A DNA stretch of 40,142 bases. Origin: Gammaproteobacteria bacterium. GTDB lineage: Bacteria > Pseudomonadota > Gammaproteobacteria > Steroidobacterales > Steroidobacteraceae. The notes under the pieces are model-generated. The model had not been told where the DNA came from, did not search any database, and worked only from the letters and a program-made list of their open reading frames with translations. A program made the translations under genes and the position numbers. Positions 19,221-38,679 of the stretch are shown here, piece after piece (position 1 is the first letter of the stretch; each line of letters opens with the position of its first letter). The stretch lies in assembly GCA_028293725.1 (NCBI GenBank), contig JAQGOE010000291.1:1-40142 (forward strand), read 5' to 3'.

Positions 19221-20750
19221 TCACGCAGCCTTCAGATCCCGGAACATGACGACCGCGACAGCGGCAGCCAGCAAGACGAGGGCCGCGCCCGCCAAAAACG
19301 TGATACCCACCGCGCTCGTATAGGCGGCTTGCACCGCGGACCGCAAGGCGGCCGCGCCCTCGACATTTCGCGGGAGGCTCGACGCCGCGCCGATGCCGCG
19401 CAACGCCGTCTCGATGGTCGAGGCGGGCGTACCCGTTGGCAGGGTCCCACTGATCCCAGAGCGGTAGAGGAAGGTCGCAAGGCTGCCGAGCAAGGCGATG
19501 CCCAGGGCGCCACCGAACTCAACCGCCGTCTCACTCAGTGCGGAGGCAGAGCCGGACTGCTCCTGGGGCGCCGCGCTGACGACGAGGTTGGAGTTGATCA
19601 CAGTGACCGGAGCCATGCCGACCGCGAACAGCGTGTTCCCCAGGACTACGAGCGACAAGGCGTGCAGGTCCGCGGCCCAGGCCATCACGGCGAGGCCGCC
19701 GGCCCCGAGCGTCAGGCCGAGGCCAAGGGCGTAGGCCGGTCGCATCAGCCTGAGCGCCGGCGACGTCAACAGCGATCCCACGACGAATCCAACTCCGGCC
19801 GGCGTGCTCCAGATTCCCGCCTGCAACACGGTCAGCCCCAGCACCAGTTGCAGATATTGCGCTACGAGAACCAGGATGCCGAAGCCGATGAAGAAGTCGA
19901 CGATGTGAATGGCGAGCGCTGCCGTCAACATGGGATGCCCGAACAGGCGCAGGTCGAGCAGCGGGTCCGCCAGGCTCCTTTGCCGCCTTACAAACAGCAC
20001 GCCAAACACCAACCCCAGGATGATCGCTGAGGCTGCCCGCGAAATGTCGCCGCCTTCAGCGGCGAGCTTGATGCCATAGATGACTGGCAGCACGGCGGCC
20101 AGAGACAAGGCAGCGCTCAGGACATCGAGCCTACCTGCGTTCGGGTTCTTGTGCTCCGGGAGCAGTACCGGCCCGACGATGAGCAACAACACCATGACCG
20201 GGATCGGCGCGAGGAACACCGCCCCCCACCAGAAGTGCGCGAGGATCAGGCCGCCAACGGCGGGCCCGATGGCGCCTCCCAGCGAAAAGCTCGCGACCCA
20301 GACACTCACGGCGAACGTCCTCTCGCGGTCATCGCGGAACATGTTGCTGATCAGCGATAGCGTCGAGGGCGCCAGCGTCGCACCGGCGATCCCTAGCAGA
20401 GCGCGAGCCGCGATGAGCGTCTCGGCACTCCGCGCAAAGGCGGCGACCAGCGACAGGAGCCCAAAGGAGGCTGACCCGATCAGCAGTAGTTTCCGCCGAC
20501 CGATCCGATCGCCGAGAGTGCCCATGACGAGCAGCGATCCCGCGGCCAGAAAGCCGTACACGTCCACGATCCACAATAACTGCGCGGCCGTAGGCTTCAG
20601 GTCGGCGCTGAGAGACGGCACGGCCAGATTCAGGATCGTGAGGTCCATCGCGTACAGGATGCAGGGCAGTGCGATGGTGGCGAGCCCGATCCACTCGCGA
20701 CGGGTCGCCTTGCCTGTGCTCAGGCCGGTGGGGAAGTCGGACGTATTCAT
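19221..20750 (-). CDS. DHA2-family (14-TM) MFS drug efflux transporter
   Basis: A proton-driven multidrug exporter of the EmrB/QacA/SmvA type. From the ATG at 20750 it has 509 residues with about 14 hydrophobic helices. Family motifs are the helix-1 motif ALPCILYAMDLTILNLAVP (motif D1), motif A in the loop after helix 2 (GTLGDRIGRRKLL), helix 4 with ARALLGIAGATLAP, and motif C in helix 5 (SLGGAIGPAVGGLI). Reading is open to a TTG at 20807, but the ATG at 20750 has CGGA 7 bases upstream and a normal N-tail. It follows the alpha/beta hydrolase on the same strand; the 118-base gap holds a candidate 11-codon leader ORF. Confidence 0.9.
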   Translation of the reverse strand: MNTSDFPTGLSTGKATRREWIGLATIALPCILYAMDLTILNLAVPSLSADLKPTAAQLLWIVDVYGFLAAGSLLVMGTLGDRIGRRKLLLIGSASFGLLSLVAAFARSAETLIAARALLGIAGATLAPSTLSLISNMFRDDRERTFAVSVWVASFSLGGAIGPAVGGLILAHFWWGAVFLAPIPVMVLLLIVGPVLLPEHKNPNAGRLDVLSAALSLAAVLPVIYGIKLAAEGGDISRAASAIILGLVFGVLFVRRQRSLADPLLDLRLFGHPMLTAALAIHIVDFFIGFGILVLVAQYLQLVLGLTVLQAGIWSTPAGVGFVVGSLLTSPALRLMRPAYALGLGLTLGAGGLAVMAWAADLHALSLVVLGNTLFAVGMAPVTVINSNLVVSAAPQEQSGSASALSETAVEFGGALGIALLGSLATFLYRSGISGTLPTGTPASTIETALRGIGAASSLPRNVEGAAALRSAVQAAYTSAVGITFLAGAALVLLAAAVAVVMFRDLKAA

Positions 20751-20778
20751 TGCCATGTCCGTAAGGTCGTAACCATGA

Positions 20779-20814
20779 TTACGAGACCGCGAAACATAGC
20801 GTAACAAGTGTCAT
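20779..20814 (-). CDS. candidate 11-residue leader peptide upstream of the DHA2 pump
   Basis: A minus-strand ATG at 20814 follows AAGAGGA (GAGG 9 bases before) and encodes MTLVTLCFAVS before TAA. Its ribosome site is better than that of the pump gene, which begins 28 bases after its stop in a different frame. The transcript can form a CGTAA/TTACG hairpin at the peptide stop. A second stem, CGGAC/GTCCG, would cover the pump start region. This resembles translational attenuation of resistance pumps, but there is no direct proof that it is translated. Confidence 0.35.
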   Translation of the reverse strand: MTLVTLCFAVS

Positions 20815-20868: not shown

Positions 20869-21795
20869 TCAAACGCGCCAGACCGGAACCTGCCAGAGCC
20901 GAAGCAATTCAGCCTCTAGAATGTTGGGATACTCTTCGGGCCAAAACAGCTTGCCCTGGGCAACCCGGCGGACGCCGCGCGACTGTGGGAACAGGCGGTC
21001 GAGATAGTGCGCCATCCGGGAATCAAAAATCCCATCTGCCATTCCCCAAACAATCCGCGTGGGCACATGTAGTCGGGCCAGGTGCGTGGCAAGGCCGGCG
21101 AGCACGTTTGACGCGAGCCCTGCGGCGTAGGCATTGAGAAGAGCTTTCCGCTCGGGAGTCGCGACGAGCGGCTGGAGGTAGATGCGGACATTCTCATTGG
21201 TGAGAAATTCGGGATGCTGATAACACAAGCCTCCGAATCCGCTCGGCGCACGCGCCGAGGCCGGGTCGTTAGCCCAGCGCACGAACACCTCGTCGGCCAG
21301 TCGTCCCTCCGTGGCGAGTTGAAGGACCGGCCGGAGCGGCGCGGGAGGGCAATCGGGCTCACTGTCGCCGTTGGTGAGCAGTAAAGTTCTCACACGGCCC
21401 GGATTGTCGACCGCGAACAACTGGGCGATAGCGTTTCCACTGTCGTTGGCTACGAGGTCCACTTCCTGCACGTCCAGATAGTCCAGGAGCGCAGCGAGCA
21501 TTCGTGCTTGGTCGACGGGCGTCATGGCTTGCCCGGGCGCCACCCCAGTCTCGCCGAGTCCCAACAAGTCAGGGGCGAGGCAGCGGCGGAAGGGAGAAAG
21601 CCGCTCGACCGTATGTCGCCACTGGAAGCTGCTGAGTGGGAAGCCGTGGATAAAGAGAGCGGCCGGGCCGGCGCCTCGATCGACAAATGCGACGCGGCCG
21701 CAGGGGAGTGCGGCAACACGCCGCGCGCGACCGCCAGAAGTAGCGCTGGCCATGGTGGAAAGCGCCAGGCTGCTGATGATGTGTCTGCGGTTCAT
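20869..21795 (-). CDS. alpha/beta hydrolase (haloalkane dehalogenase/epoxide hydrolase-like), active site incomplete
   Basis: The 308-residue protein has the alpha/beta-hydrolase core: the oxyanion HGFP motif near residues 50-53, DLLGLGETG, and a nucleophile elbow VANDSGNAIA with Asp118 where dehalogenase-like enzymes have the nucleophilic Asp (HDWGG). The late block WGMADGIFDSR supplies the usual acidic region. At the position of the catalytic His (usually GHF) it reads GKLFWPEEYP, so the His appears to be replaced by Lys. The N-terminus (MNRRHIISSLALS) resembles an export signal with twin Arg. The start at 21795 has AAGGAG 6 bases before it. It is divergent from the MmyB-like regulator and upstream of the DHA2 pump. 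Confidence 0.8.
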   Translation of the reverse strand: MNRRHIISSLALSTMASATSGGRARRVAALPCGRVAFVDRGAGPAALFIHGFPLSSFQWRHTVERLSPFRRCLAPDLLGLGETGVAPGQAMTPVDQARMLAALLDYLDVQEVDLVANDSGNAIAQLFAVDNPGRVRTLLLTNGDSEPDCPPAPLRPVLQLATEGRLADEVFVRWANDPASARAPSGFGGLCYQHPEFLTNENVRIYLQPLVATPERKALLNAYAAGLASNVLAGLATHLARLHVPTRIVWGMADGIFDSRMAHYLDRLFPQSRGVRRVAQGKLFWPEEYPNILEAELLRLWQVPVWRV

Positions 21796-21844
21796 TGGGT
21801 GCTCCTTGGGAGCCGCACAATCAGCGTCAGGCGTCCCCGGATCA

Positions 21845-21861
21845 ATGACGCGATACGTCAT
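21845..21861. promoter_or_regulatory. candidate operator between the hydrolase and its regulator
   Basis: ATGACG and CGTCAT form a perfect six-base inverted repeat with a five-base spacer (CGATA) in the 99-bp divergent region. It lies 33 bases before the regulator ATG and 49 bases from the hydrolase start, a suitable place for the XRE regulator to control both. Confidence 0.5.
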
Positions 21862-21882
21862 GGTTCAGACCACGCGGCCGGC

Positions 21883-21888
21883 TATGAT
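21883..21888 (+). promoter_or_regulatory. -10 box that would give a leaderless regulator mRNA
   Basis: TATGAT (5/6 match to TATAAT) lies only 6 bases before the ATG at 21895, so the usual start point would fall on or beside the start codon. There is no Shine-Dalgarno sequence in that interval, which fits leaderless translation. The -35 region is poor. Confidence 0.4.
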
Positions 21889-21894
21889 CCGGCC

Positions 21895-22719
21895 ATGCCC
21901 GCGCCGATCGCCGCTTCAAAGGTCTCCGCTTCTCCGCTCGGGGCGCGGCTTCGCTACTGGCGAGTGCAACGACGACTGAGCCAACTGGAGCTCGCCCTGC
22001 TAAGCGGTGTCTCAGCCCGACACCTCAGCTGCGCGGAAACCGGCCGGGCCCGTCCAAGCCGCGAGGTGGTTCACGCGCTCGCCGCCGCACTTGATTTACC
22101 TTTGCGCGAGCGTAACGCCTTACTAATGGCGGCGGGCTTCGCCCCAGCCTTTCAGGAAACCGCACTGGGCTCCTACGAGTTTGCGCCAATGCGCCAGGCA
22201 ATCGATCTAACACTGAACGGACACGACCCTTTCCCCGCCTTCGCCTTCGACGGCAGTTGGAACGTACTGCAGGTCAACCGCGCCATGGTGCGGGTATTCG
22301 GTCAGGTCCGGCCCGGCGGCCCGAAGCATGCCAATGTCGTGCGCCAGGTGCTCGATCGTGATGATATGCGACCCTACATCGAAAATTGGGCCGAGGTCGC
22401 GTGGAATCTGCTTGCACACGTGGAGCAAGCCGCGCTTTCGAGACCTTCGGACGCTGCGCTGCAATCGCTATTGGCTGCCGCGCGCACGACCGATGGTCTA
22501 CCGCCCCGGCCCACCCAGCACGCGGCGCCTCCGTGTTCGCCGGTGATGGTTGCGGTCTTCCGGGCCGGTGATCGGAGACTCCGGTTCTTCTCCACGCTGA
22601 CTCGGTTCATGGCGGCTGCCGACGTGGGCCTCGAGGAAGTCGGCGTCGAGTGCCTGCACCCAGTTGATGACGAGACCCGCTGCTTCTGTCGAGAGCTGTG
22701 GGACGCGCCAGGGGAGTGA
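21895..22719 (+). CDS. XRE-family regulator with MmyB-like ligand-binding domain
   Basis: The 274-residue protein has an N-terminal helix-turn-helix (residues 14-70) with the family-typical SQLELALLSGVSARHLSCAE, then TGRARPSRE and LDLPLRERNALLMAAGFAP. A C-terminal MmyB-type domain follows (residues about 100-270), recognised by AFDGSWNVLQVNRA and the end block CREL. This domain is PAS-like and in the actinobacterial MmyB structure binds a fatty acid; its ligand here is unknown. The gene is divergent from the alpha/beta hydrolase, the normal arrangement for this regulator class, and likely controls the hydrolase-pump unit through the dyad at 21845-21861. Confidence 0.88.
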   Translation: MPAPIAASKVSASPLGARLRYWRVQRRLSQLELALLSGVSARHLSCAETGRARPSREVVHALAAALDLPLRERNALLMAAGFAPAFQETALGSYEFAPMRQAIDLTLNGHDPFPAFAFDGSWNVLQVNRAMVRVFGQVRPGGPKHANVVRQVLDRDDMRPYIENWAEVAWNLLAHVEQAALSRPSDAALQSLLAAARTTDGLPPRPTQHAAPPCSPVMVAVFRAGDRRLRFFSTLTRFMAAADVGLEEVGVECLHPVDDETRCFCRELWDAPGE

Positions 22720-22758: not shown

Positions 22759-24159
22759 CTACCCACCCGCGATCGCCTCCAACGCAAGATTCCGGCTCCT
22801 GGGACCAAAGGCAGCGATTGTGACAATCACCACACCCATGCTCGAAGCGATAAAGACGCACACCCCTGGCGTACCTGCTCTCGCCAGCACGAACGCGATC
22901 ATGAAACTCGTGAATATCGTCGAGAGACGGCTGAACGAGTAGACAAAGCCCACCGCGCGTGCCCGGATGTATGTCGGAAACAACTCTGTTTGATAGGCGT
23001 GGTACGCATAAGAGAGCAGGTTGTTACTCAAGGTCACCAGCGCGCCAAAGACGATCAGCAACACAGGGTCTCGCTGTTGCGCGAACAGAAGACCAAACGT
23101 TGCGGTGCCGGCGGCTGCGGCCACGATCTGCCATTTGCGCTCGAACCGGTCAGCGATCAGCGTGAACAGGAAGGGGCCCAGCGGGTAGATCATCGCGATG
23201 ATGAAGGCGTATTTCAGGCTGTTGGTGATCCCGATGCCCTGCGAGCTGATGAGCTTTGGCACCCAGTTGCCGAAGCCGTAGAAACCGATTGCCTGGAACA
23301 GGTGGAAGACAATCAGCATGAGAGTTCGGCGACGGTAGGCGGGTTGGAACAGCTCGCGGTAGCTCGGCCGGCGAGCCGGTCCGGCCGGAGCTACCGTACT
23401 CACCGGGGACGGCAGCTCACGGCCCAGGTCCCGCGCGACGCGCTCCTCTATTGCCGAGGTCACGCGCAGAGCCTCCTCGGACCGGCCTTGCCCTGCCAGC
23501 CAGCGGGGCGATTCGGGAAGGTGACGCCTCATCCACCAGACGAGGACTGCGCTGAGCGCGGGGAACAATGCAACCCAGCGCCAGCCTTCGAGGCCGAGCG
23601 GACTGTAGGGCAGCAATAGCCAGGACAGGAGAGCCACCACCGGGACCGCACAAAACATCACTCCCTGACTGAAGGCAAACGCCCTCCCCCGCACGCTCTT
23701 GGGCACCAATTCTCCGAGGTAGGTGTCAATGGTTACCATCTCGCAGCCGATACCAATACCGGCGAGAAAGCGCCAGATGAAGATGCCCGTCGCGCTCACT
23801 TGAAAGGCCATCACGAGTGTGGCGATGGCGTAAACGAGCAGCGCAAACGTAAAGATGGCACGACGCCCGAATCTGTCCGCGGCGGCTCCCAGGAACAGTG
23901 TGCCCAACCACAGACCCGCGAAGGTCGACGAGGCGAAGGCCGCCTGGTCGGACAATCCGAAGAATGCTCCATGACCCTCCTGAAACGCGCCACTGCGGAA
24001 CAGGCCCGGGCTGACGTATCCGGTCATCAGCAGGTCGTAGATCTCGAAAAACGCTCCCAGCGAGAGCAGCAGAACCAACTTCCACAGGTAGCGGGACGGC
24101 GGCAGTCGATCGAGCCGCGCAGCGATGTCAGCCCCGACGGACGTCGCCGACGTCAGCAT
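22759..24159 (-). CDS. MFS transporter (sugar/aromatic-acid-proton symporter type)
   Basis: A 12-helix importer-type major facilitator, 466 residues from the ATG at 24159. It shows the helix-1 pattern FFEIYDLLMTGYVSPGL, GAAADRFGRRAIF after helix 2 (motif A), RFLAGIGIGCEM in helix 4, the ELVPKSVRGRAFAF loop after helix 5 and LPESPRWL before the central loop. ELFPTYIRARAVGF repeats the motif in the second half. This is the AAHS/sugar-porter set used for carboxylates and sugars. The reading frame extends upstream, but the start at 24159 has a GGAAGGGGGG ribosome site. It is divergent from the lyase/CoA-transferase operon with a LysR-type box between them, so it probably imports that pathway's substrate. 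Confidence 0.87.
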   Translation of the reverse strand: MLTSATSVGADIAARLDRLPPSRYLWKLVLLLSLGAFFEIYDLLMTGYVSPGLFRSGAFQEGHGAFFGLSDQAAFASSTFAGLWLGTLFLGAAADRFGRRAIFTFALLVYAIATLVMAFQVSATGIFIWRFLAGIGIGCEMVTIDTYLGELVPKSVRGRAFAFSQGVMFCAVPVVALLSWLLLPYSPLGLEGWRWVALFPALSAVLVWWMRRHLPESPRWLAGQGRSEEALRVTSAIEERVARDLGRELPSPVSTVAPAGPARRPSYRELFQPAYRRRTLMLIVFHLFQAIGFYGFGNWVPKLISSQGIGITNSLKYAFIIAMIYPLGPFLFTLIADRFERKWQIVAAAAGTATFGLLFAQQRDPVLLIVFGALVTLSNNLLSYAYHAYQTELFPTYIRARAVGFVYSFSRLSTIFTSFMIAFVLARAGTPGVCVFIASSMGVVIVTIAAFGPRSRNLALEAIAGG

Positions 24160-24238
24160 GGAATCCCCCCTTCCAGTCCAATTCGTCAAGGAAGCCATAT
24201 CCGGTCTCATTCGACAAGTCTGGAGTTTCGAGGGCACT

Positions 24239-24255
24239 CATCGTCGGTGACGATG
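24239..24255. promoter_or_regulatory. LysR-type box in the MFS / lyase divergent region
   Basis: CATCGTC and GACGATG form a perfect seven-base inverted repeat with a three-base spacer. It contains ATC-N9-GAT and exactly T-N11-A, the classical LysR-family binding pattern. It shares CATCG-N7-CGATG with the dyad before the lysR gene at 26525-26543. It lies 111 bases upstream of the lyase start and 79 bases from the MFS start. Confidence 0.65.
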
Positions 24256-24366
24256 GCAGCCCCGCGCTGACATCGCGGGCGAAGACCGTGGCCATCGCAA
24301 AGAAGCTCTTCAGCCAGCGCCGGTCGCGTGCCAGGATGCCACCATCGAGGGGTATGAGATCTGCGG

Positions 24367-25290
24367 TTGGCTACAAATGCAATAGAGCTCGTTGAGGTCG
24401 GTCCGCGCGATGGACTGCAGAATGAAGCCGTCCCGGTCACGACACGCGACAAGATTGCTCTCATCGAGCGGCTCATCGGAGCTGGGTTGCGCAGGATCGA
24501 GGCAGTCAGCTTCGTGCACCCAAAGAGAGTGCCGCAGATGGCGGACGCTGAAGCGGTCATGGAGGGGTTGCCTGAGCGCGAGGATGTCACCTACATCGGG
24601 CTCGTCCTCAATGAAAAAGGCGCAGAGCGCGCGGTGCGGACTCGGGTCAGTGAGCTGGGAATCGTCGTTGCCGCCAGCGATACCTTCGGGCGACGCAATC
24701 AGAACCAGACGACCGCAGAAGCTGTTGCCACGGCGCTGAATGTAATGCGTTATGCGCGAGCACACGGACGCACTTCGCAGGCCTGCATTTCGGTTGCGTT
24801 GGGTTGTCCGTTCGAGGGACGTATTCCGTTTGCTTCGGTGGTGGAGATTGCAGAAAGGCTCGTCGTTGGCGAACCCCGCGAGATCGCATTGGCCGACACG
24901 ATTGGTGTCGCCGTCCCCGATGAGGTCGGTGAGCTGATCGGGCGTGTCCAGAGCGCGATCCGACCGATTCCCATTCGGGCGCATTTCCACGATACACGCA
25001 ACACCGCGATCGCTAACGTGTGGGCAGCCATCCGTGCCGGCGCAACGGCAATCGACGCCTCTGTCGGCGGGATCGGCGGATGTCCGTACGCACCGCGGGC
25101 GACCGGCAATGTTGCGACCGAGGATGTCCTGTATCTGTTGAATCACTCGGGCGTGGCGACCGGTGTCGATATCGAGAGCGTAATGCGAACCGCGCAGTGG
25201 TGCGGCGAGCTGTTGGGTCGTCAATTGCCGGGTCGGGTGAGTCGGGCGGGTGACTTCCCGCGCGCGATTTCGCCGGGGCTCGAATCGTGA
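24367..25290 (+). CDS. hydroxymethylglutaryl-CoA lyase family enzyme
   Basis: The 307-residue protein is a TIM-barrel HMGL-like enzyme, which cleaves 3-hydroxy-3-methylglutaryl-CoA (or a related 3-hydroxyacyl-CoA) to acetyl-CoA and a keto acid. The substrate motif GPRDGLQNE puts the catalytic Arg14-Asp15 at the N-terminus. The metal-site block AHFHDTRN (His206, His208, Asp209) follows, and the active-site signature SVGGIGGCPYAP carries the catalytic Cys239. The start is TTG at 24367, the first reasonable codon; no strong ribosome site is visible. The stop overlaps the CoA-transferase start by 4 bases (GTGA), so the two are translationally coupled. Citramalyl-type CoA substrates cannot be excluded. 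Confidence 0.88.
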   Translation: MATNAIELVEVGPRDGLQNEAVPVTTRDKIALIERLIGAGLRRIEAVSFVHPKRVPQMADAEAVMEGLPEREDVTYIGLVLNEKGAERAVRTRVSELGIVVAASDTFGRRNQNQTTAEAVATALNVMRYARAHGRTSQACISVALGCPFEGRIPFASVVEIAERLVVGEPREIALADTIGVAVPDEVGELIGRVQSAIRPIPIRAHFHDTRNTAIANVWAAIRAGATAIDASVGGIGGCPYAPRATGNVATEDVLYLLNHSGVATGVDIESVMRTAQWCGELLGRQLPGRVSRAGDFPRAISPGLES

Positions 25291-26495
25291 CCGGCGAGGT
25301 GAGATCGGGGCCCCTGCGCGATTTGCGCGTCATCGAAGCCGGCCAATTAATTGCCGGGCCCTTCTGCGGACAGCTGCTGGGCGACTTTGGCGCGGAGGTG
25401 ATCAAGATCGAGCCGCCGCGCATAGGCGATCCGCTGCGCGCCTGGCGGCGGATGAATGGCGATGGGCCGTCGCTTTGGTGGCCCATCATTGCACGCAACA
25501 AGAAGTCCATCACTTTGGATCTGCGTCAGAGCGCGGGCCAGGAGCTGGCGCGCCGGCTGATTGGTCGTGCGGATGTGCTCATCGAGAATTTCCGACCCGG
25601 CACGATGGAGAAGTGGAATCTGGGCTATGACAGGCTCGCCGCCGCCAATCCGGGACTGGTGATGGCTCGAATGTCCGGTTTCGGTCAAACGGGTCCTTAC
25701 TGTCAGCAACCCGGCTTCGGGTCGATCGGTGAGGCCATGGGCGGACTGCGCTACGTGACAGGGCATCCTGATCGGCCGCCGTCCCGGGTCGGCATCTCCA
25801 TCGGTGACAGTCTGACGGCTCTGTTTGGCGCGCTGGGCGTGCTGTCGGCGTTGCTTGCCCGTCAGAAGTCCGGGCAGGGGCAGATCGTCGATGCGGCGCT
25901 TTACGAGTCCGTCCTGGCGGTCATGGAGTGCCTGGTTACTGAATTTCAACAGACGGGACAGGTGCGCGAGCGCACAGGCGCGACGCTACCCGGCGTGGCG
26001 CCATCCAATGTTTATCCGTGTTTGGATGGCGTCTCCGTCGTGATCGGCGCCAACGGCAACGCAGTGTTCGCCCGACTGTGCCAAGCCATGAATCAGCCGC
26101 ACCTCGCCTCGGAGGGCCGGTTTGCGACTGATGAGGAACGCGGGGCGCGCCAACAGGAGCTCGATGAGATCATCAGCGCGTGGACCGCGCGTCTGCCCAG
26201 CGCAACTGTGCTCGGCCTGATGCGCGAATTCGCAGTTCCTGCGGGACTGATCTATCGCGCGCCCGACATGTTGACCGATCCCCAGTTCGCGGAACGCTCC
26301 TCCCTCATCGAGGTCCGCGATACGCTACTGGGTACGATCAAGATGCAGGGCGTCTTCCCGCGACTGAGCGCTACGCCGGGCGCGGTACGCTGGTCGGGGC
26401 CTGAGCTGGGCCAGCACAACGATGAGATCTATCGCGACACGCTCGGGCTTTCGGAACAGGAGCTGGCGGACTTGCGCCGTCATCACGTGGTCTAA
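25287..26495 (+). CDS. class III (CaiB/BaiF, formyl-CoA transferase-like) CoA-transferase
   Basis: The 402-residue protein moves CoA between carboxylic acids. Family features are the N-terminal LRDLRVIEAGQLIAGPFCGQ and LLGDFGAEVIKIE, ENFRPGTMEKWNLGYD (residues 100-115), SGFGQTGPY, and Asp174 in GISIGDSLTALFGALG, which takes the place of the catalytic Asp. The C-terminal half has VPAG and LLGTIKMQG segments. It begins with GTG overlapping the lyase stop. Some succinyl-CoA-dependent members of this family act on glutarate or 3-hydroxy-3-methylglutarate, so the pair could activate and then cleave a branched C5-C6 diacid. The exact substrate is inference. Confidence 0.9.
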   Translation: MTGEVRSGPLRDLRVIEAGQLIAGPFCGQLLGDFGAEVIKIEPPRIGDPLRAWRRMNGDGPSLWWPIIARNKKSITLDLRQSAGQELARRLIGRADVLIENFRPGTMEKWNLGYDRLAAANPGLVMARMSGFGQTGPYCQQPGFGSIGEAMGGLRYVTGHPDRPPSRVGISIGDSLTALFGALGVLSALLARQKSGQGQIVDAALYESVLAVMECLVTEFQQTGQVRERTGATLPGVAPSNVYPCLDGVSVVIGANGNAVFARLCQAMNQPHLASEGRFATDEERGARQQELDEIISAWTARLPSATVLGLMREFAVPAGLIYRAPDMLTDPQFAERSSLIEVRDTLLGTIKMQGVFPRLSATPGAVRWSGPELGQHNDEIYRDTLGLSEQELADLRRHHVV

Positions 26496-26524
26496 CCAGG
26501 ATTTCCTCGCGCTCGCCCCTTCTG

Positions 26525-26543
26525 CCATCGCGCTCCGCGATGG
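26525..26543. promoter_or_regulatory. LysR-type box upstream of lysR
   Basis: CCATCGCG and CGCGATGG form a perfect eight-base inverted repeat with a three-base spacer (CTC). It contains ATC-N9-GAT with T-N11-A geometry and the same CATCG-N7-CGATG frame as the box at 24239-24255. It lies 48 bases before the lysR start, as expected for autoregulation. Confidence 0.65.
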
Positions 26544-26591
26544 TAACATCGCAACGTCAGCCCGGCCGGGTTGTGGGGGGGAAGCAGCAGT

Positions 26592-27530
26592 ATGACCTCA
26601 AGATTGGACCTGCAGACTCTGCATCTGTTCACGACGGTGGCCACTGTTCGCAACATCGCTAAGGCGGCCGAACAGGAACACATCGCGGCGTCCGCTGTTA
26701 GCAAGCGTATCTCGGAGTTGGAAGACGCGCTCGCCACGACGCTGTTCTACAGATTGCGACGCGGCGTCGAGCTCGCTCCCGCCGGACAGGCGCTACTGCA
26801 TCACACGACTGCCATCTTCCGCAGCATCGATCGCTTGAAGAGCGACATGGCAGAGTACGCGCAAGGCGTGCGCGGACATGTGCGGATGATGGCCAACCTG
26901 ACATCCATCATGCAGTTTCTCACCAAGGACCTCAGTACTTTTGCTATCGCCCATCCGGAGATCAAGATCGATCTCACCGAGTCGTCTACTCCCGCCATCG
27001 TCAAGGCCGTCTCTGACGGACTGGTCGATTTCGGGATCATTGCCGACGTGCGGGTCAAAGCACCCGGGGACATCGCTCCGGGACTGGCTCTCGAGAACTA
27101 CAGGCACGACAAGATGGCGGTGGTTGTACCGGCCGGCCATCCGCTGAGTAAAAAGAAGTCGGTTGGGTTTCGCGAGGCCGCCGAATACGACTTTGTTGGA
27201 CTGCACGCCCATGGCGGATGGGAGACGCTGATGATGAATGCGGCGCAGGCGGCGGGCTGCTCGCTGCGAATCCGCATTCGGGTGCCCAGTTATGATGCAA
27301 TGTTGCGCCTGGTGGAGGCGGGTCTGGGCATCACGATTGTGCCCCCGGGGGCTTGTGCCTCGCATGATCGCGATCAGATCCGCGTCATCCGGCTGGCCGA
27401 GGCCTGGGCCGAGCGCACTTTGAAAATCTGCTATCGCGACCTCAAGCTGCTTCCCGTCACCGCACGGATGCTCATAGAGCACCTGCGCGCGGAAACGGAA
27501 TCACACGAGACCTCTAGAAGGTTGCCTTGA
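26592..27530 (+). CDS. LysR-family transcriptional regulator
   Basis: The 312-residue protein is full length for the family. The winged helix-turn-helix is in residues 1-60 (LDLQTLHLFTTVATVRNIAK, AAEQEHIAASAVSKRISELE, then LFYRLRRGVELAPAGQ). The effector-binding domain (residues about 90-300) shows the VSDGLVDFGIIADV and VEAGLGITIVPPGA strands. The ATG at 26592 fits the usual N-terminus; GGGGGG lies about 10 bases before it. It follows the CoA-transferase after 96 bases on the same strand, with a LysR box in that gap and a second matching box before the lyase operon, so it most likely controls the lyase, CoA-transferase and MFS genes. Its 3' end overlaps the convergent TonB receptor by 17 bases. 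Confidence 0.92.
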   Translation: MTSRLDLQTLHLFTTVATVRNIAKAAEQEHIAASAVSKRISELEDALATTLFYRLRRGVELAPAGQALLHHTTAIFRSIDRLKSDMAEYAQGVRGHVRMMANLTSIMQFLTKDLSTFAIAHPEIKIDLTESSTPAIVKAVSDGLVDFGIIADVRVKAPGDIAPGLALENYRHDKMAVVVPAGHPLSKKKSVGFREAAEYDFVGLHAHGGWETLMMNAAQAAGCSLRIRIRVPSYDAMLRLVEAGLGITIVPPGACASHDRDQIRVIRLAEAWAERTLKICYRDLKLLPVTARMLIEHLRAETESHETSRRLP

Positions 27531-30500
27531 TGCCGGCGAAGTACTGGCGACCCAGAATATCGTAAGTGGCAGGGTCCGTCGTCAAGGGCGCGCCGCTGAC
27601 CAGGGGCGGGATCTTGTCAGCAAGGTTGGTCACGCCCGCATTGAGTTGCACGTGACTACCGATGCTCCAGCTTGCGTCGAGATCGAAATAGTTATACGCG
27701 GGAACCCCCGGAGTCGTTGCCGTCGGCGATACGATCCGGTCCTGGTGCACCATGCCTCCGATGAACCGCCAGTGCAGCCCCGCACCGATGGGACCGCGCC
27801 GCCATCCCAGTGATGTATTGGCCTTCCAGTGTGGATGGGCTATGTCGTTGCTGACCGCACTGTTGCCGATGCTGCCCGCGAAGTTGAGCGCCGGCGTGCC
27901 AGGGAGGCTGGAGACGTCGAACGAGCGGGTGTAGGTCACGAGTGAGTTCAACCTGATCGAGCCTGCCCCATCGGATAGACCGAGCGCCCCGAGCCCGAAA
28001 CCCCAGTCGGCCTGGAAGTCAATGCCGTCGGTCTTGTAAGTGGCGAGATTCAACAGCAGCTGCCTGCCCAAGATGATGCTGCCGTTCGAGCTGTCACGGG
28101 TGATCAACTGACAGTAGACATTGGAATTCGAATAGCCCGGGTTGCTCGTGCCGTCCACGTTGAAGCAGCGCTGCAGGATGTCCGACAAGGCGATCGAGCC
28201 GATCGCGTCGGCGATCTTGATCCGGAAGTAGTCGATCGACAGGTTCAGCGTACGGGCGAGCGGGCTGTCGAAAGCCGGCGCCCATACGCCGCCAAAGGAG
28301 TAGGTGTCGGCCGTTTCCGGTTTGAGGTTCACGTTGCCGCCGGACTGGCCGGCGATCGAGGACAAGCCATAGGTATAGTTTCCGATCAGGCCGGCCGGCA
28401 CTCCCTGAGCCTGACACAGCGCAATCACTTTGGAAGCATCGGCGCCGCTGCGGAAGAATCCATTTACGTCGCAAGGATCCCCCGTCACGAGCGGATGTCC
28501 GGGCGATGGCGGCGTGCCGGTGGGCAGTTGGGAGGTGATTGTCGGTGCAAACAGCTCCCCGAGACTGGGGGCACGGATGGCGCGCTCGTAGCCTCCGCGC
28601 AAGTGCACGGATGAAACCGGCTGCCAATTCATGTCGATCTTGTAGGTGTTGACTCCTCCAAAGCGGTCGTAGTTCGAACGCCGGTAGCCCAGGTCGAATG
28701 ACAGCGCCTCGACCAACGGCAGTTTGGCGAGCACAGGCACCAGCAGTTCGGAATAGACCTCGCGCACGATCGTCGAGCCCGCCGTCGGCGTGATGAGATC
28801 GAAAGCGTAGCTGTCCGAGAGCGCGAGGTTGTCGTCCGGGCGATAGTCGAAGGTATCCTCCCTGTAGTCTGCGCCCAACGCGAAGCGCAGGTCGCCGGCC
28901 GGCAGGCTGAGGAGCTTGCCCTGGATGGTGCCGACGAAGTTCTTTTCATCCATGCTGTTGACGTTGTGATTCTGGCGGCCCGCGAACTCCAGACAGGCCG
29001 GCGGAATGCCGTTGACTCCGAACGGGTTGTATTCGGTCGCCGGCGTCGCCCCCGGCTGCTGCCAGCCGACACAGCTGCCTTTTCCCCTGTTGCTCGTGTA
29101 GTTGACCGTGCCATTCAACATCGCGGCGTACGCGGACTGGCTCGCATCGTCGTTTTGAACGTTGTTCAGGGTATTCTTGCCATAAGATGCGTACACATCC
29201 CAGCTCAAGTCACTGACTCCGAGCTCGCCCTTGAGTCCCGCGGTCGCCTGGTACACCGAGTACTCGAACGATTCGACGCGGTTGCCCAGCTCCACCAGTT
29301 GTTTGAAGTAGGTGAACGGCGCGGTGGGGTTGGGTCGGGAATTGAGGATCGTGAGCAGATCGGCGGGAATCAGGGGATTGGCCATGCCGTTGAGCACCAC
29401 GGGAATCGTCATTGCACGCGCACTCAGCGCGAACCCCGGCGCGGTCTCGTCCCGCGCCGTCGAGTTCATGAACTGCAACTGGGCGTAGGCGGAGATGTTG
29501 TCGGTCAGTTCGTAACTGCCGCGGCCGAACAGGTTGTACTTTTTCAGCGGGACCTGGAGATCGAAGTACTGGCCGTTGACGACGCTCACCTGTGTTCCAT
29601 TGTTCGTGAGTGCCACGGCCGGCGCACCCACGCCGCGGTAGTTCTGCACCGGACCGAACTGGTCCGTGAAGATCGTGCCCCCGGTGTTGACACCAATCGC
29701 GCCCGGATAAGCGCCGCTACCAGGGAGCTGAGTCGTCCCGGGATAGCCTGGCAGCACACTATTCACCGCCGCGATGGTCGGCGAGTTCGCGCTCGGCGCC
29801 AGAATACCCTCTTGCGGGATATTAACGCTGCGGATGTTGGCGAAAAACGGCCGGTCGCGCCCGTGCACGACGCTGCGATCCGAATAGTCGAGGGCTAGGA
29901 GCACGTTACCGCGATGCTCGGCGACATCGGTACCGATAATGATGCTGGCGAGATCGTTGCTTCCGTCCCCGTGGGTAGTGCCCCCGCGCTGGTAGCTGAA
30001 CTCGGCACCGTTGAATTTCTGACGCAGCTTGAAGTTGATGACTCCCGCAACCGCATCCGAGCCATAGACCGCCGAGGCGCCGCCGGTGATCACCTCCACA
30101 TTCTCGATCATGGACATCGGAATGGTGTTGAGGTCAACGGACCCGTCCGGGTTTGACGGCTGCAAGCGCCGCCCGTCGAGCAGGACCAGGGCTCGGTTTG
30201 AGCCGAGGCCGCGCAGATCGCCATACGCCTGGCCACCCCCGAATCCGGTGGCGCCCTGGACGTCGCCGGTCTCCGTCTGACCTTGGGCGGCGGCAAACTG
30301 CGGCAACTCTCCGAGGGCTCGATCCAGTGTCGGCTGTCCGGCAGCGGTCAGCGATGAGTGATCGATTGTCGCGATCGGAGTGTCGGCAACGGTATTGCGT
30401 CGTGAGATCAAGGACCCGGTGATGACCACCTCTGCCAGAGGACTCTCTGGGCTCGGCGCCGCCGTAGCGGTGGAAGCCGCAGGCTCGGACTCACTCGTCT

Positions 30501-30633
30501 GGGCCAGTGCGGCAATCGGCGCAACTGCGCAGACGATGAGACCAACGACGACCCACGGCTTGAGCCCAGCGGCTGCACTCCGCGGTTCGCACGCGCCGAT
30601 ATGGATGTTTTTGACGATGTTATTCGAGACCAT
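27514..30633 (-). CDS. large TonB-dependent outer-membrane receptor
   Basis: The 1039-residue protein is an active importer of the outer membrane, energised by TonB. It has a signal peptide (hydrophobic residues about 26-44, ending ALAQ), a Pro/Ala-rich spacer, a TonB-box-like EVVITGS near residue 68, and a plug domain of about 120 residues containing LRGLGSNRALVLLDGRR, VEVITGGASAVYGSDAVAGVINF. The long beta-barrel ends in YFAGIKATF with the terminal Phe needed for outer-membrane insertion. The LNAGVTNLADKIPP block is typical of the large oar-like/oligomer receptors. GAGGGGGAGGGG lies 5 bases before the ATG. The substrate is unknown; its position next to the acid-catabolism module makes a related ligand possible. 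Confidence 0.93.
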   Translation of the reverse strand: MVSNNIVKNIHIGACEPRSAAAGLKPWVVVGLIVCAVAPIAALAQTSESEPAASTATAAPSPESPLAEVVITGSLISRRNTVADTPIATIDHSSLTAAGQPTLDRALGELPQFAAAQGQTETGDVQGATGFGGGQAYGDLRGLGSNRALVLLDGRRLQPSNPDGSVDLNTIPMSMIENVEVITGGASAVYGSDAVAGVINFKLRQKFNGAEFSYQRGGTTHGDGSNDLASIIIGTDVAEHRGNVLLALDYSDRSVVHGRDRPFFANIRSVNIPQEGILAPSANSPTIAAVNSVLPGYPGTTQLPGSGAYPGAIGVNTGGTIFTDQFGPVQNYRGVGAPAVALTNNGTQVSVVNGQYFDLQVPLKKYNLFGRGSYELTDNISAYAQLQFMNSTARDETAPGFALSARAMTIPVVLNGMANPLIPADLLTILNSRPNPTAPFTYFKQLVELGNRVESFEYSVYQATAGLKGELGVSDLSWDVYASYGKNTLNNVQNDDASQSAYAAMLNGTVNYTSNRGKGSCVGWQQPGATPATEYNPFGVNGIPPACLEFAGRQNHNVNSMDEKNFVGTIQGKLLSLPAGDLRFALGADYREDTFDYRPDDNLALSDSYAFDLITPTAGSTIVREVYSELLVPVLAKLPLVEALSFDLGYRRSNYDRFGGVNTYKIDMNWQPVSSVHLRGGYERAIRAPSLGELFAPTITSQLPTGTPPSPGHPLVTGDPCDVNGFFRSGADASKVIALCQAQGVPAGLIGNYTYGLSSIAGQSGGNVNLKPETADTYSFGGVWAPAFDSPLARTLNLSIDYFRIKIADAIGSIALSDILQRCFNVDGTSNPGYSNSNVYCQLITRDSSNGSIILGRQLLLNLATYKTDGIDFQADWGFGLGALGLSDGAGSIRLNSLVTYTRSFDVSSLPGTPALNFAGSIGNSAVSNDIAHPHWKANTSLGWRRGPIGAGLHWRFIGGMVHQDRIVSPTATTPGVPAYNYFDLDASWSIGSHVQLNAGVTNLADKIPPLVSGAPLTTDPATYDILGRQYFAGIKATF

Positions 30634-30952
30634 GTCCCCCTCCCCCTCAAGTGACCGCTCGTGGGCTTAATCACTCCCGGTACTACCCGATATGGTCCAT
30701 CGGGCTCGTACCGATTTGCATGTTATGGAGGGGTCCATCACTTGACGAGTGGTGATTTGCGAGCCTTGCCGTCGTGGCCTGCGACGGCAACATCCAGTGG
30801 CCGGTAACGAGGCTTTCATTTGGCCGGTACCTTGCCTATGTGTCCCAGACTCGCTGCAGTGACGTAGGTGTCGCGTCGAAGTGGCAGGAGTGATTACGCG
30901 GCGCTATTGCTTGCGATACTATTCCGGGCATGGTGTTAGACGAAACTATCCT
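30634..30952. promoter_or_regulatory. intergenic region with a three-half-site array upstream of the TonB receptor
   Basis: No gene is visible here. At 30687-30715 three alternating half-sites occur with constant spacing: CCGAT, seven bases, ATCGG, seven bases, CCGAT. The first pair extends to a perfect six-base dyad CCCGAT/ATCGGG (30686-30704). The array lies about 55-80 bases before the receptor start on the minus strand. An imperfect ATCAC/GTGAT pair occurs near 30740. No convincing -35/-10 pair was found. Confidence 0.45.
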
Positions 30953-31699
30953 GTGATTTTTCGGTATACCCGTTGGCTCGTCACCCTCCTTTGCATGACG
31001 CCCGCGTTTGCGTCAGCTGTCGAGTGTTCGGAAATTCAATTTCAAGGCACGCGCTCCACTATTTGCCGGGTAGACCTGCGTACGGACCACCTGCAATTGT
31101 TTCTCAACGACGAGTCCGGCAAGCCGTTCACCTCATTTCGGCGAGTTGCCCAGTCGCTGGCAGCACACGACCAACAATTGGCCTTCGCCATGAACGCCGG
31201 CATGTATCGTGAGGATTATTCAGCCGTTGGCCTCCTCGTCATGGATGGCCACCAGGTTCACCGTCTCAACCTCGCCTCCGGCTTCGGAAATTTCTATCTG
31301 AAACCCAATGGCGTCTTCGTTCTCTCGGCGTCCGGTGCCCGCATCATCGAAAGCTCCGAGTACCGTTCGTTGCCGGAGCCCGCGATTTTGGCGACACAGT
31401 CCGGGCCGCTGCTGCTGCACGCCGGTCAGATCAATCCCAACCTCAGTCCCCAGGGCACCTCGAAGCTGATTCGCAACGGAGTGGGCGTCGTCAGTGCGCA
31501 TGAAGTCGTGTTTGCGATCAGCGAAGACCCGATCAACTTTTACGACTTCACCCTTCTATTCCGCGATCGGCTCAAGTGTGGTGATGCGCTCTATTTGGAC
31601 GGGAACGTGTCCAGCCTGTATTCCAGAGGTCTAGGGCGCGACGACGAACGAGTACCCCTCGGCCCTATCGTGGGCATAACGATGTCCTTACCGAAGTAA
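30953..31699 (+). CDS. phosphodiester glycosidase (DUF2233/NAGPA-like) family protein, exported
   Basis: The 248-residue protein matches the phosphodiester glycosidase domain, whose animal member NAGPA uncovers mannose-6-phosphate by removing GlcNAc from a phosphodiester. Visible family blocks are AFAMNAGMYREDYSAVGLLV (residues about 79-98), KPNGVFVL, a QSGPLLLHAGQ strand and LYLDGNVSSLYSRG near the end, which carries the conserved Asp-Gly and Ser. The GTG at 30953 gives a clean signal peptide (FRYTRWLVTLLCMTPAFASA); the frame is open to a GTG at 30881, which would add 24 residues, and neither has a good ribosome site. The 3' end overlaps the convergent methyltransferase by 12 bases. The natural substrate is unknown. 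Confidence 0.78.
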   Translation: MIFRYTRWLVTLLCMTPAFASAVECSEIQFQGTRSTICRVDLRTDHLQLFLNDESGKPFTSFRRVAQSLAAHDQQLAFAMNAGMYREDYSAVGLLVMDGHQVHRLNLASGFGNFYLKPNGVFVLSASGARIIESSEYRSLPEPAILATQSGPLLLHAGQINPNLSPQGTSKLIRNGVGVVSAHEVVFAISEDPINFYDFTLLFRDRLKCGDALYLDGNVSSLYSRGLGRDDERVPLGPIVGITMSLPK

Positions 31700-35677: not shown

Positions 35678-36289
35678 GTGGGTAGGTTGAAATCGAAGGC
35701 GTTGACGCAGGGGGTCGGGATCGCAGCCCTGCTACGCGATCGGCGTAGGAAGCTCGGAATGACGTTGCAGGTGGTAGCCAAGCTATCCGGTCTATCACCC
35801 TCGTTTCTGTCGCAGGCGGAGCGGGGCAAGGCCATTCCGTCGATTGTGTCGCTTCAGCATCTGGCGAAGGCGTTCGATGTGGACATGTCGTACTTTTTCG
35901 AGGCGCCCAAGGGGACCCAGATCCTGCGCCGTGGCGCCGAGCCTGAATACATCAACGTCGGCTTGCCGGTGACGTACATCCGACTGAGCTCCGGTCTGCC
36001 GGATGAGCGCATGGATGCCCTGATCCTGGTGATTCCGCCAAAACTGGTTTTTCCGCGCGATCGCCGCGAAGGCGAGGCGCTTTACTACGTGCTCGACGGA
36101 CGGCTCCATCTGGAGCTGGGTGACGAGCCGTACGATCTCGGGCCGGGGGACAGTGTGCACTTCAACACGCACATGTCGTATCAAATGAAGGCTCTGGGCA
36201 GTAAACCGGCCCGTGTACTGTGGGTCGGTACACCTCCGCTATTCGATGGCGCGCACCGTCGCAAACAAGGACGGAGAATCACGAAATGA
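35678..36289 (+). CDS. XRE-cupin transcriptional regulator
   Basis: The 203-residue protein joins an N-terminal helix-turn-helix (residues 14-70: IAALLRDRRRKLGMTLQVVA, SGLSPSFLSQAERGKAIPSI) to a C-terminal cupin sensor domain (residues about 105-190: EGEALYYVLDGRLHLELGDE, then LGPGDSVHFNTHMSYQM). This is the PuuR/SutR-like class, which senses small amino-acid-like or amine metabolites. The start is GTG at 35678, with GAGGGG upstream. Its stop overlaps the next cupin gene by 4 bases (ATGA), so it is cotranscribed with the genes it probably controls. Confidence 0.9.
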   Translation: MGRLKSKALTQGVGIAALLRDRRRKLGMTLQVVAKLSGLSPSFLSQAERGKAIPSIVSLQHLAKAFDVDMSYFFEAPKGTQILRRGAEPEYINVGLPVTYIRLSSGLPDERMDALILVIPPKLVFPRDRREGEALYYVLDGRLHLELGDEPYDLGPGDSVHFNTHMSYQMKALGSKPARVLWVGTPPLFDGAHRRKQGRRITK

Positions 36290-36588: not shown

Positions 36589-36612
36589 ACACCCGAGGGG
36601 CGGAGAACAGTG

Positions 36613-38670
36613 ATGCGAGTAGCCACCGACGTCGGCGGGACCTTTACGGACCTGGTCTATTACACAACCGATAAGGCGACCGGAAGCGCCGTACTACGCT
36701 CGGCGAAGGTCGACACCACGCCGCCGAGCTTCGAGCGCGGCGTCATGGCGGCCATTGCCAAAGCCGGCATCGCGCCGGCCGACTTCGCGTTTTTCTCGCA
36801 CGGGACCACCATCGTCATCAATGCGCTGTTATCCCGCAAAGGTGCGAAGACGGCGCTGATCACGACCCGGGGCTTTCGCGACGTGTTGGAGATCGCACGG
36901 GGTAACCGGCCCGACCTATTCAACTTCTACTTCCGCAAGCCACCGCCGTTCGTACCGCGCTCACTGCGTACCGAGATCACGGAACGCGTCGACCATCTGG
37001 GTCATGTTTTGAAGGAGCCGGCCCTCGCTGAGCTGCCGGCGCTGGTGAAGCAGCTTTCCGCCGAGGGCGTGGAGTCTGTCGCGGTCTGCTTTCTGCATGC
37101 CTATCTCAACCCGGTCAACGAGCAGGCGGTCGTGACACGGTTGCGGGAGCTCTGGCCGACCGTTTCGATCATCCCTTCGCACGAAGTCTCGCGCGAATGG
37201 CGTGAGTACGAACGCACGAGCACGACGGTGCTCACGGCCTACGTGCATCCTGTCGCGAAGCGCTATCTGGAGAAACTGCGGAGCGAGCTCGAGCAAAGCG
37301 GCTTCCGCGGCGCGCCCTACATCATGCAGTCGAATGGTGGAATCGAGACGCTTGAAGCGGTCGCACGCAACCCTATCACCATGATCGAGTCCGGGCCTGC
37401 CAGCGGCGTGCTCGGAGCCATCGCATTAGGCCGTGTCACGGGCGATCACAACGTCATCGCACTCGACATCGGCGGCACCACCGCCAAATGCTCTCTCATC
37501 GACAGGGGCAGTGCGAAAGTCACCACCGACTACAAGATCGAGTGGACTCGCACCAATCCGGGCTACCCGATCAAGACACCCGTCATCGATATCGTTGAGA
37601 TCGGCAATGGCGGTGGAAGTATCGCCTGGTTGGATGAGGGGCAGCGACTGCACGTCGGCCCGCAGAGCGCCGGCGCGGATCCGGGCCCCGCTGCCTATGG
37701 CCGCGGCGGCACGAAACCCACGACCACCGATGCCCAACTGGTCGCGGGACGTATCGACCCCAGGAATCTGCTGGGCGGCGAAATCCGTGCGGATATGGAG
37801 AATGTGCGGCGGGCGTTCGCGCCACTGGTGAAACAACTCGGCGGGTCGATGGCAGAGGTCGCGCGTGGCGTGATCCGGATCGCGGACGCCAACATGGTCA
37901 ACGCCCTCAAGTTGATATCGATCAACCGCGGCTACGATCCGCGCGAGTATTCATTGCTTGCGTATGGCGGCGGAGGGGCGATGCATGCCGTGGCGCTCGC
38001 GGCGGAGTTGCAAGTGCCGCAGGTCATCATCCCCGTCAACTCCGCGGTGTTTTCGGCTTGGGGCATGTTGTTGACCGACCTGCGACGCGATTACTTGCGC
38101 ACCCGCGTCACCCCTCTGACGACGTCCTCGCCGGGCGCGATCGCCGAGGTTTATGACGATATGGCCGCTCACGCGCTCGCGCAGTTCAAGGCGGACGGTA
38201 TCGAAATGGATCGCGTGCACCTGGAGCGTTTCGCCGATATGCGTTATCTGGGACAGGAGCATACGGTCAAGGTCCGCTTCCCGGATGGAGAGTTCACAAA
38301 GGAGAGTCTCGCCGAGGCACGGGGGCGTTTTGACGAAGCGCACGAGCGTGGCTATACCTACAAGCTGCCACATGATGTGCAGATCGTGAATTTCCACGTG
38401 GTCGGGTATGCCCTGGTCGACAAACCCGAGCTGCCGAAGATCCCGCCATCGCGAAATTCACCATCGGCGGCCATACGTGGCCGGCGTCAGGTCGACTTCG
38501 AGGCGCACGGCATGGTCGATACACCCATCTACGATCGCCTCGCGTTGGGCGCCGGCGCCGAGTTCGTCGGTCCTGCGATTCTCGAAGAGCCGGCGGCCAC
38601 CACCGTGGTCCCGCCTGCGATGAAGGTCCATGTCGATGAATACGGCAATGTGCGTGTCAAGGTTTCCTGA
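36613..38670 (+). CDS. hydantoinase/oxoprolinase family protein, subunit A (HyuA-type)
   Basis: The 685-residue protein belongs to the ATP-dependent family that includes N-methylhydantoinase A, 5-oxoprolinase and the acetone/acetophenone carboxylase subunits. The N-terminal domain starts RVATDVGGTFTDLV, the first phosphate loop of the actin-like fold. SHGTTIVINALL follows near residue 62, GFRDVLEIARGNRPDLFNF near 100, and the second nucleotide-binding loop ALDIGGTTAKCSLI near 285. The C-terminal domain ends in EEPAATTVVPPAMKVHVDEY. A GTG lies one codon upstream; the ATG has better spacing from GGAG (7 bases). hyuB follows after 9 bases, as expected for a two-subunit enzyme. The substrate cannot be decided from sequence. 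Confidence 0.93.
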   Translation: MRVATDVGGTFTDLVYYTTDKATGSAVLRSAKVDTTPPSFERGVMAAIAKAGIAPADFAFFSHGTTIVINALLSRKGAKTALITTRGFRDVLEIARGNRPDLFNFYFRKPPPFVPRSLRTEITERVDHLGHVLKEPALAELPALVKQLSAEGVESVAVCFLHAYLNPVNEQAVVTRLRELWPTVSIIPSHEVSREWREYERTSTTVLTAYVHPVAKRYLEKLRSELEQSGFRGAPYIMQSNGGIETLEAVARNPITMIESGPASGVLGAIALGRVTGDHNVIALDIGGTTAKCSLIDRGSAKVTTDYKIEWTRTNPGYPIKTPVIDIVEIGNGGGSIAWLDEGQRLHVGPQSAGADPGPAAYGRGGTKPTTTDAQLVAGRIDPRNLLGGEIRADMENVRRAFAPLVKQLGGSMAEVARGVIRIADANMVNALKLISINRGYDPREYSLLAYGGGGAMHAVALAAELQVPQVIIPVNSAVFSAWGMLLTDLRRDYLRTRVTPLTTSSPGAIAEVYDDMAAHALAQFKADGIEMDRVHLERFADMRYLGQEHTVKVRFPDGEFTKESLAEARGRFDEAHERGYTYKLPHDVQIVNFHVVGYALVDKPELPKIPPSRNSPSAAIRGRRQVDFEAHGMVDTPIYDRLALGAGAEFVGPAILEEPAATTVVPPAMKVHVDEYGNVRVKVS

Positions 38671-38679
38671 GGAATCACC

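Follow-up and report, generated by a model that had tools for sequence, protein, structure and literature searches.

The closest characterised precedent for a class III coenzyme A (CoA) transferase gene beside a lyase gene of the HMGL (3-hydroxy-3-methylglutaryl-CoA lyase) type is the sct/ccl pair of Chloroflexus, the lyase of which was reportedly the subject of a 2007 paper. The citramalyl-CoA lyase of the itaconate pathway is a CitE-type rather than an HMGL-type enzyme. A 2006 paper on Chloroflexus is listed in a table of PMC4676930 and cited there, and the two activities, succinyl-CoA:D-citramalate CoA-transferase (EC 2.8.3.20) and (R)-citramalyl-CoA lyase (EC 4.1.3.46), are given in an excerpt of PMC8307300. 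Degradation of itaconate and methylsuccinate (ict-ich-ccl, PA0878-0886) likewise comprises CoA transfer to a branched C5 acid followed by a citramalyl-CoA lyase (PMC9875883, in extract), but proceeds via (S)-citramalyl-CoA (PMC12290011, in extract). Here, a four-gene unit was analysed in a stretch of 40,142 nucleotides from a gammaproteobacterium of the Steroidobacteraceae (contig JAQGOE010000291.1, hereafter the window). The isoleucyl-tRNA synthetase (IleRS) of the organism has a best match at 90% identity, and its matches at 76-88% are labelled Steroidobacteraceae, Steroidobacterales or simply Gammaproteobacteria/Proteobacteria, which places the organism near Steroidobacterales. As judged from sequence comparisons, and with a probability of roughly 0.55, the four-gene unit would take up (R)-citramalate, or a near analogue, and cleave it to acetyl-CoA and pyruvate.

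The unit comprises a divergent major facilitator superfamily (MFS) transporter, an HMGL-type lyase with a TTG start codon (position 24367), a class III CoA-transferase and a LysR-type regulator. This layout is as originally predicted, and so is the GTGA coupling, the GTG start of the transferase overlapping the TGA stop of the lyase. All four open reading frames (ORFs) are open and intact (22759-24237 on the reverse strand; 24367-25290, 25287-26495 and 26571-27530 on the forward strand). Since close relatives exist in public protein data (92% identity for the closest lyase, 99% for the closest transferase), lyase and transferase are considered real genes. Through this unit, (R)-citramalate (2-hydroxy-2-methylsuccinate), or a 2-alkylmalate much like it, would become usable to the cell: import of the acid would fall to the MFS protein, the transferase, by homology to Chloroflexus Sct, would pass CoA to it from succinyl-CoA, and the lyase would catalyse a retro-Claisen split of the CoA ester into acetyl-CoA and a 2-oxo acid, which in the case of citramalate is pyruvate, while the LysR protein would sense the acid or an intermediate and control the unit. 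Directly visible are the four genes, how they are coupled, the families they belong to and the recurring neighbourhoods; the enzyme activities are predicted.

The transferase matched Pfam CoA_transf_3 (PF02515; E 1.9e-126, 422.5 bits) and seven NCBIfam models, all far under their cut-offs (best 264 of 750). A class III CoA-transferase is not nameable from its domain alone, and a characterised citramalate enzyme was therefore sought for comparison. In the genome of C. aurantiacus, the ORF at 3,084,345-3,085,526, with an HMGL-type lyase directly after it, is the sole transferase match beside a lyase match, from which we infer that the two are the published sct/ccl; the smtA/smtB gene numbers in the accessible part of PMC3150298 are compatible with another three transferase-like ORFs, located near 220-226 kb. 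The window transferase is 60% identical to this Sct candidate (238/394, no gaps). Its Asp174, which we take to be the class III catalytic Asp, sits in a motif common to the C. aurantiacus protein. The score was 540 bits (genome search) or 498 bits (BLASTP) against the Sct candidate vs. 195 bits (phmmer) against the solved succinate-hydroxymethylglutarate CoA-transferase 9br6, a rough comparison across different programs. In an 84-row transferase tree (a quick tree, with long branches elsewhere), the window protein, the Sct candidate and 45 of the 46 lyase-linked transferases fall in one 68-row clade (Shimodaira-Hasegawa-like approximate likelihood ratio test, SH-aLRT, 95); the single lyase-linked transferase outside it belongs to the second pair of locus L095, and SmtA/SmtB-like proteins also lie outside. 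A 17-row tree left the branching order unresolved.

The original prediction had proposed that the unit degrades free 3-hydroxy-3-methylglutarate (HMG, meglutol), which would be imported, given CoA from succinyl-CoA and cleaved into acetyl-CoA and acetoacetate; citramalate was mentioned there as a close analogue. The proposal of a catabolic unit that combines an importer, a CoA-transferase, a lyase and a regulator is supported, but free HMG is less likely than (R)-citramalate and, overall, an unlikely substrate, the transferase resembling the Sct candidate far more than it does the solved HMG transferase. In its favour are the features of the lyase. This protein belongs to the HMGL family (Pfam HMGL-like, PF00682, E 2e-47; NF004283, 329.8 bits, above the cut-off of 246), and its best match among solved structures is the HMG-CoA lyase 1ydo (237.8 bits). 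It holds Arg14, Asp15, Glu45, His206, His208, Cys239, Asn248 and Glu252, aligned with the catalytic residues of HMG-CoA lyases (R41, D42, E72, H233, H235, C266, N275 and E279 in the human enzyme). It also retains Asn113, Asp209, Ala214 and Tyr241, which are most frequent at these sites in leucine-type lyases.

Other sites and the trees set the window lyase apart from the leucine-type lyases, which argues against HMG. The window protein has Leu81, Gln112, Cys140 and Ala176, whereas 20 rows of lyases near methylcrotonyl-CoA carboxylase-type genes (one gene included twice, L041 excluded) carry Pro (20) at site 81, Ile, Leu or Val (20) at site 112, Tyr (15), Ile (4) or Val (1) at site 140, and Gly (19) or Ser (1) at site 176. 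In a quick 98-row lyase tree with 95 different rows, 14 of the 15 carboxylase-linked rows, all except L041, fall together on a side of 24 rows (support of the split, 93), and the window side holds 39 of 47 transferase-linked rows together with the Chloroflexus Ccl candidates. Forcing the window lyase group together with leucine-type lyases was rejected (approximately unbiased test, p-AU 0.005) in a set of 47 rows; this set omits five loci whose rows were long or odd, includes neither L041 nor most rows of other contexts, and has groups named after a first tree. The fold family and catalytic residues are also those of the leucine-pathway HMG-CoA lyase (MvaB/LiuE type), and L041 has a lyase with window-type residues near carboxylase-type genes; together with the family name, this would suit a cell's ordinary leucine-pathway lyase placed by chance beside an unrelated transferase. 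Such a coincidence is nevertheless highly improbable, in view of the GTGA coupling, the recurrent pairing with the transferase clade, and the p-AU value (L041 being outside the set); moreover, no carboxylase or acyl-CoA dehydrogenase domain was found among the 29 window ORFs scanned with Pfam.

The neighbourhoods of related pairs were then compared. Among the best 80 of 583 genome loci found with the lyase, several of them on stretches that end at contig ends, 29 contain a transferase of at least 45% identity, with HyuA or HyuB as well in 16 of the 29. On plasmids, 15 of 20 listed matches, among 125 records with a match, were opened, their gene tables being incomplete: HMGL is annotated at most a few genes away from the transferase in 11 of the 15 regions, LeuC/LeuD are equally close to the pair in six (H1, H2, H3, H15, H16 and H20) and HyuAB near the transferase in three, while H5, H7 and H14 are without annotated HMGL and H11 without any annotation. 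The step from citraconate to (R)-citramalate would need a hydro-lyase of the LeuC/LeuD type; these neighbours therefore fit formation of (R)-citramalate from citraconate and not HMG, for which they have no evident role. Loci L081 and L221 (Methylobacterium plasmids) and L049 also show the pair with LeuC, LeuD and an ICL/PEP-mutase-family protein, a layout that resembles the dimethylmaleate hydratase / dimethylmalate lyase pair.

As for one gammaproteobacterial order, the transferase was matched at E 1e-130 or better in 99 of 246 genomes, and the loci of 40 of these 99 genomes (the 20 best and 20 others) were opened. Within 6.5 kb of the transferase, HMGL occurs in 38, HyuA in 37, HyuB in 36, an isochorismatase-type ORF in 14, LeuC in three, a GntR match in two and a weak LysR match in one. 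In the order of genome G313, none of the 20 genomes searched gave a match. The HyuAB counts, and the C. aurantiacus pair with its adjoining GntR-, HyuA-, HyuB- and isochorismatase-like ORFs, would suit a different substrate, namely another tertiary 3-hydroxy acid, for instance one with a cyclic imide, lactam or hydantoin as its precursor, as would apply in the cluster of HyuA/HyuB with an isochorismatase-type amidohydrolase; the oxo product would then be other than pyruvate. This alternative is to be taken seriously, if less probable than citramalate: the LeuCD contexts point to citramalate, and the window's own HyuAB, about 10 kb off, are of another subfamily.

Several points weigh against the citramalate reading itself. 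NF004283 names the window lyase an HMG-CoA lyase, the same name being given to Ccl, and the identity of 40% to the Ccl candidate is equalled by that to its Chloroflexus paralogue. Ccl lies on a long branch, and the Ccl candidates carry Pro81 as leucine-type lyases do, so the residue signature of the window is only partly common to Ccl. The lyase of L041 (Hydrogenibacillus schlegelii), near LeuCD-like and carboxylase-type genes, has Leu81, Gln112 and Ala176 and falls on the window side of the 98-row tree; L041 does not fit a simple division into two lyase types. The transferase-linked lyases do not form one clade: in the same tree, eight of the 47 stand on the leucine side, and in a 53-row tree that also includes three plasmid lyases, the deepest split is weak (support 10) and the Cupriavidus and Mitsuaria lyases are among the leucine-type ones. 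From this scatter, it is probable that HMGL-family lyases became partners of the transferase on more than one occasion, and the substrate cannot be fixed from the lyase by itself. Concerning the transferase, the sister group of the window protein in the tree is Phenylobacterium-type, and at the genome locus nearest to the window protein (Caulobacterales, L087/L155) a stretch of 19.9 kb contains neither a lyase nor a HyuAB match; L155 was the one locus of this group opened, and its lack of a lyase match indicates that some relatives work without an adjacent lyase. The next nearest group, of sphingomonads, often occurs with HyuAB, and the substrate may therefore be another acid. Finally, neither LeuCD nor another hydro-lyase was found among the 29 window ORFs scanned with Pfam.

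The LysR protein has the domains HTH_1 (PF00126) and LysR_substrate (PF03466) and probably starts at the in-frame ATG at 26592. Compared with 4153 ORFs of at least 200 residues from all loci and the window, it strongly matched, after itself, proteins of Mitsuaria sp. 7 (42%) and Cupriavidus necator N-1 (41%) over about 297 residues, both adjoining transferase/lyase pairs; the other matches at E 1e-5 are at 27% over about 130 residues, a thin background because the set contains few LysR proteins. The neighbours of these two matches are the best evidence that the regulator would belong to the unit, in agreement with the original prediction. With one GntR and one LysR query, the loci gathered by then gave a GntR match in 25 and a LysR match in one, and no solved LysR structure matched the window protein at E 1e-20.

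The MFS protein probably starts at the third Met, the ATG at 24159. It matched Pfam Sugar_tr (PF00083, E 2.5e-36) and MFS_1 (PF07690), with TIGR00895 as top NCBIfam model (189.7 bits, under the cut-off of 418.55), and is 30% identical (134/452) to an MFS protein near a LeuCD/CoA-transferase/HMGL cluster of Methylobacterium currus; in plasmid regions H1, H2 and H20, an annotated MFS transporter adjoins the lyase. The divergent region (24160-24366) contains inverted repeats, e.g. 24232-24245/24249-24262. A scan for sigma-70-like promoters gave one match vs. 1.1 expected, and none within this region.

The divergent-MFS order was not encountered in the opened loci (single-sequence queries). The claim that no operon like this one has been described is not supported, the Chloroflexus pair being a characterised precedent. 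The latter shares with the window a class III transferase of the same clade beside an HMGL-type lyase, but the transferase comes first, in the reverse of the window order, and in place of LysR there is a GntR-like ORF; the HyuA-, HyuB- and isochorismatase-like ORFs come next, with two further ORFs that by eye look like ATPases of an ATP-binding cassette transporter. Also comparable is the order LysR-transferase-lyase-LeuC-LeuD-TctC on plasmid pBB2 of C. necator N-1 (L223), an annotated cluster for which no function was found in print. Its lyase (41%), transferase (51.5%), LysR and a transporter component are as in the window; it differs by LeuCD, a Tct-type instead of an MFS transporter, LysR in front, and a lyase placed among leucine-type lyases. 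In the literature searched, most subscription journals being outside it, neither the four-gene operon nor a transferase/lyase/HyuAB cluster was described. The unit offers a testable substrate for a pair mostly labelled formyl-CoA transferase or CaiB-like and HMG-CoA lyase.

A transferase-lyase-HyuA-HyuB cluster recurs in Chloroflexota, Actinomycetota and Pseudomonadota (L156 4524-12256 of C. aurantiacus, L001, L022, L098, L182-L220), part of the clusters also having isochorismatase-like and GntR ORFs. From this distribution, the citramalate enzymes of Chloroflexus may have their physiological place in a catabolic amide/imide cluster common to several phyla, and the cluster deserves more attention than the window unit. 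That pairs linked to ATP-dependent HyuAB and an isochorismatase-type amidohydrolase, including the C. aurantiacus sct/ccl locus, form an undescribed pathway from a cyclic imide, lactam or hydantoin via a 2-hydroxy-2-alkylsuccinate to acetyl-CoA and a 2-oxo acid, with the HyuAB step in the window performed by the non-orthologous pair at 36610-40140, is a distinctly doubtful proposal. That pair (36610-38670 and 38680-40140, forward strand, cut by the window end) has the Pfam domains Hydantoinase_A and Hydantoinase_B, caprolactamase as top NCBIfam model, under cut-off, and an HTH-cupin regulator in front (35678-36289). It was rejected as part of the unit, as its subfamily is not that to which the HyuAB in the lyase clusters belong (HyuA 30-37%, HyuB 27-36% identity), and no orthologous HyuA/HyuB adjoins the window transferase/lyase pair. 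An indole-3-acetate (iad) pathway via dioxindole-3-acetyl-CoA, which uses the acyl-CoA synthase IadF and the ketothiolase-type IadG (PMC12633357, in extract), was dropped because the available parts of PMC12633357, PMC9613470 and PMC8383072 mention neither a lyase nor hydantoin.

Table. Features of the unit and its nearest downstream neighbour (window positions; starts of the MFS and LysR genes are the probable ones).
Feature	Position	Strand	Basis or remark
MFS transporter (AAHS/sugar-porter-like), proposed importer	22759..24159	-	PF00083, PF07690; longest ORF to 24237
Divergent intergenic region, presumed shared regulatory region	24160..24366	.	inverted repeats
HMGL-type (DRE-TIM) acyl-CoA lyase, proposed (R)-citramalyl-CoA lyase	24367..25290	+	PF00682, NF004283, trees, residues
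Class III CoA-transferase, proposed succinyl-CoA:(R)-citramalate CoA-transferase	25287..26495	+	PF02515, 60% to Sct candidate, tree
LysR-type regulator, proposed regulator of the unit	26592..27530	+	PF00126/PF03466; longest ORF from 26571
TonB-dependent receptor	27514..30633		tail to tail with LysR, 17-base overlap; ORF list and Pfam

There is no reason to count the TonB-dependent receptor as part of the unit. Further on, a phosphodiester glycosidase (NAGPA) domain protein (30881-31699, forward strand) is flanked by two TonB-dependent receptors. On the other side, a DHA2-type MFS exporter (19221-20807, reverse strand), with QepA as top NCBIfam model (477 bits, under the cut-off of 1075), would by this evidence be an ordinary efflux pump. 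An alpha/beta hydrolase (20869-21861, reverse strand) and an MmyB-like XRE regulator (21508-22719, forward strand) overlap as longest ORFs, and their true starts probably lie further in.

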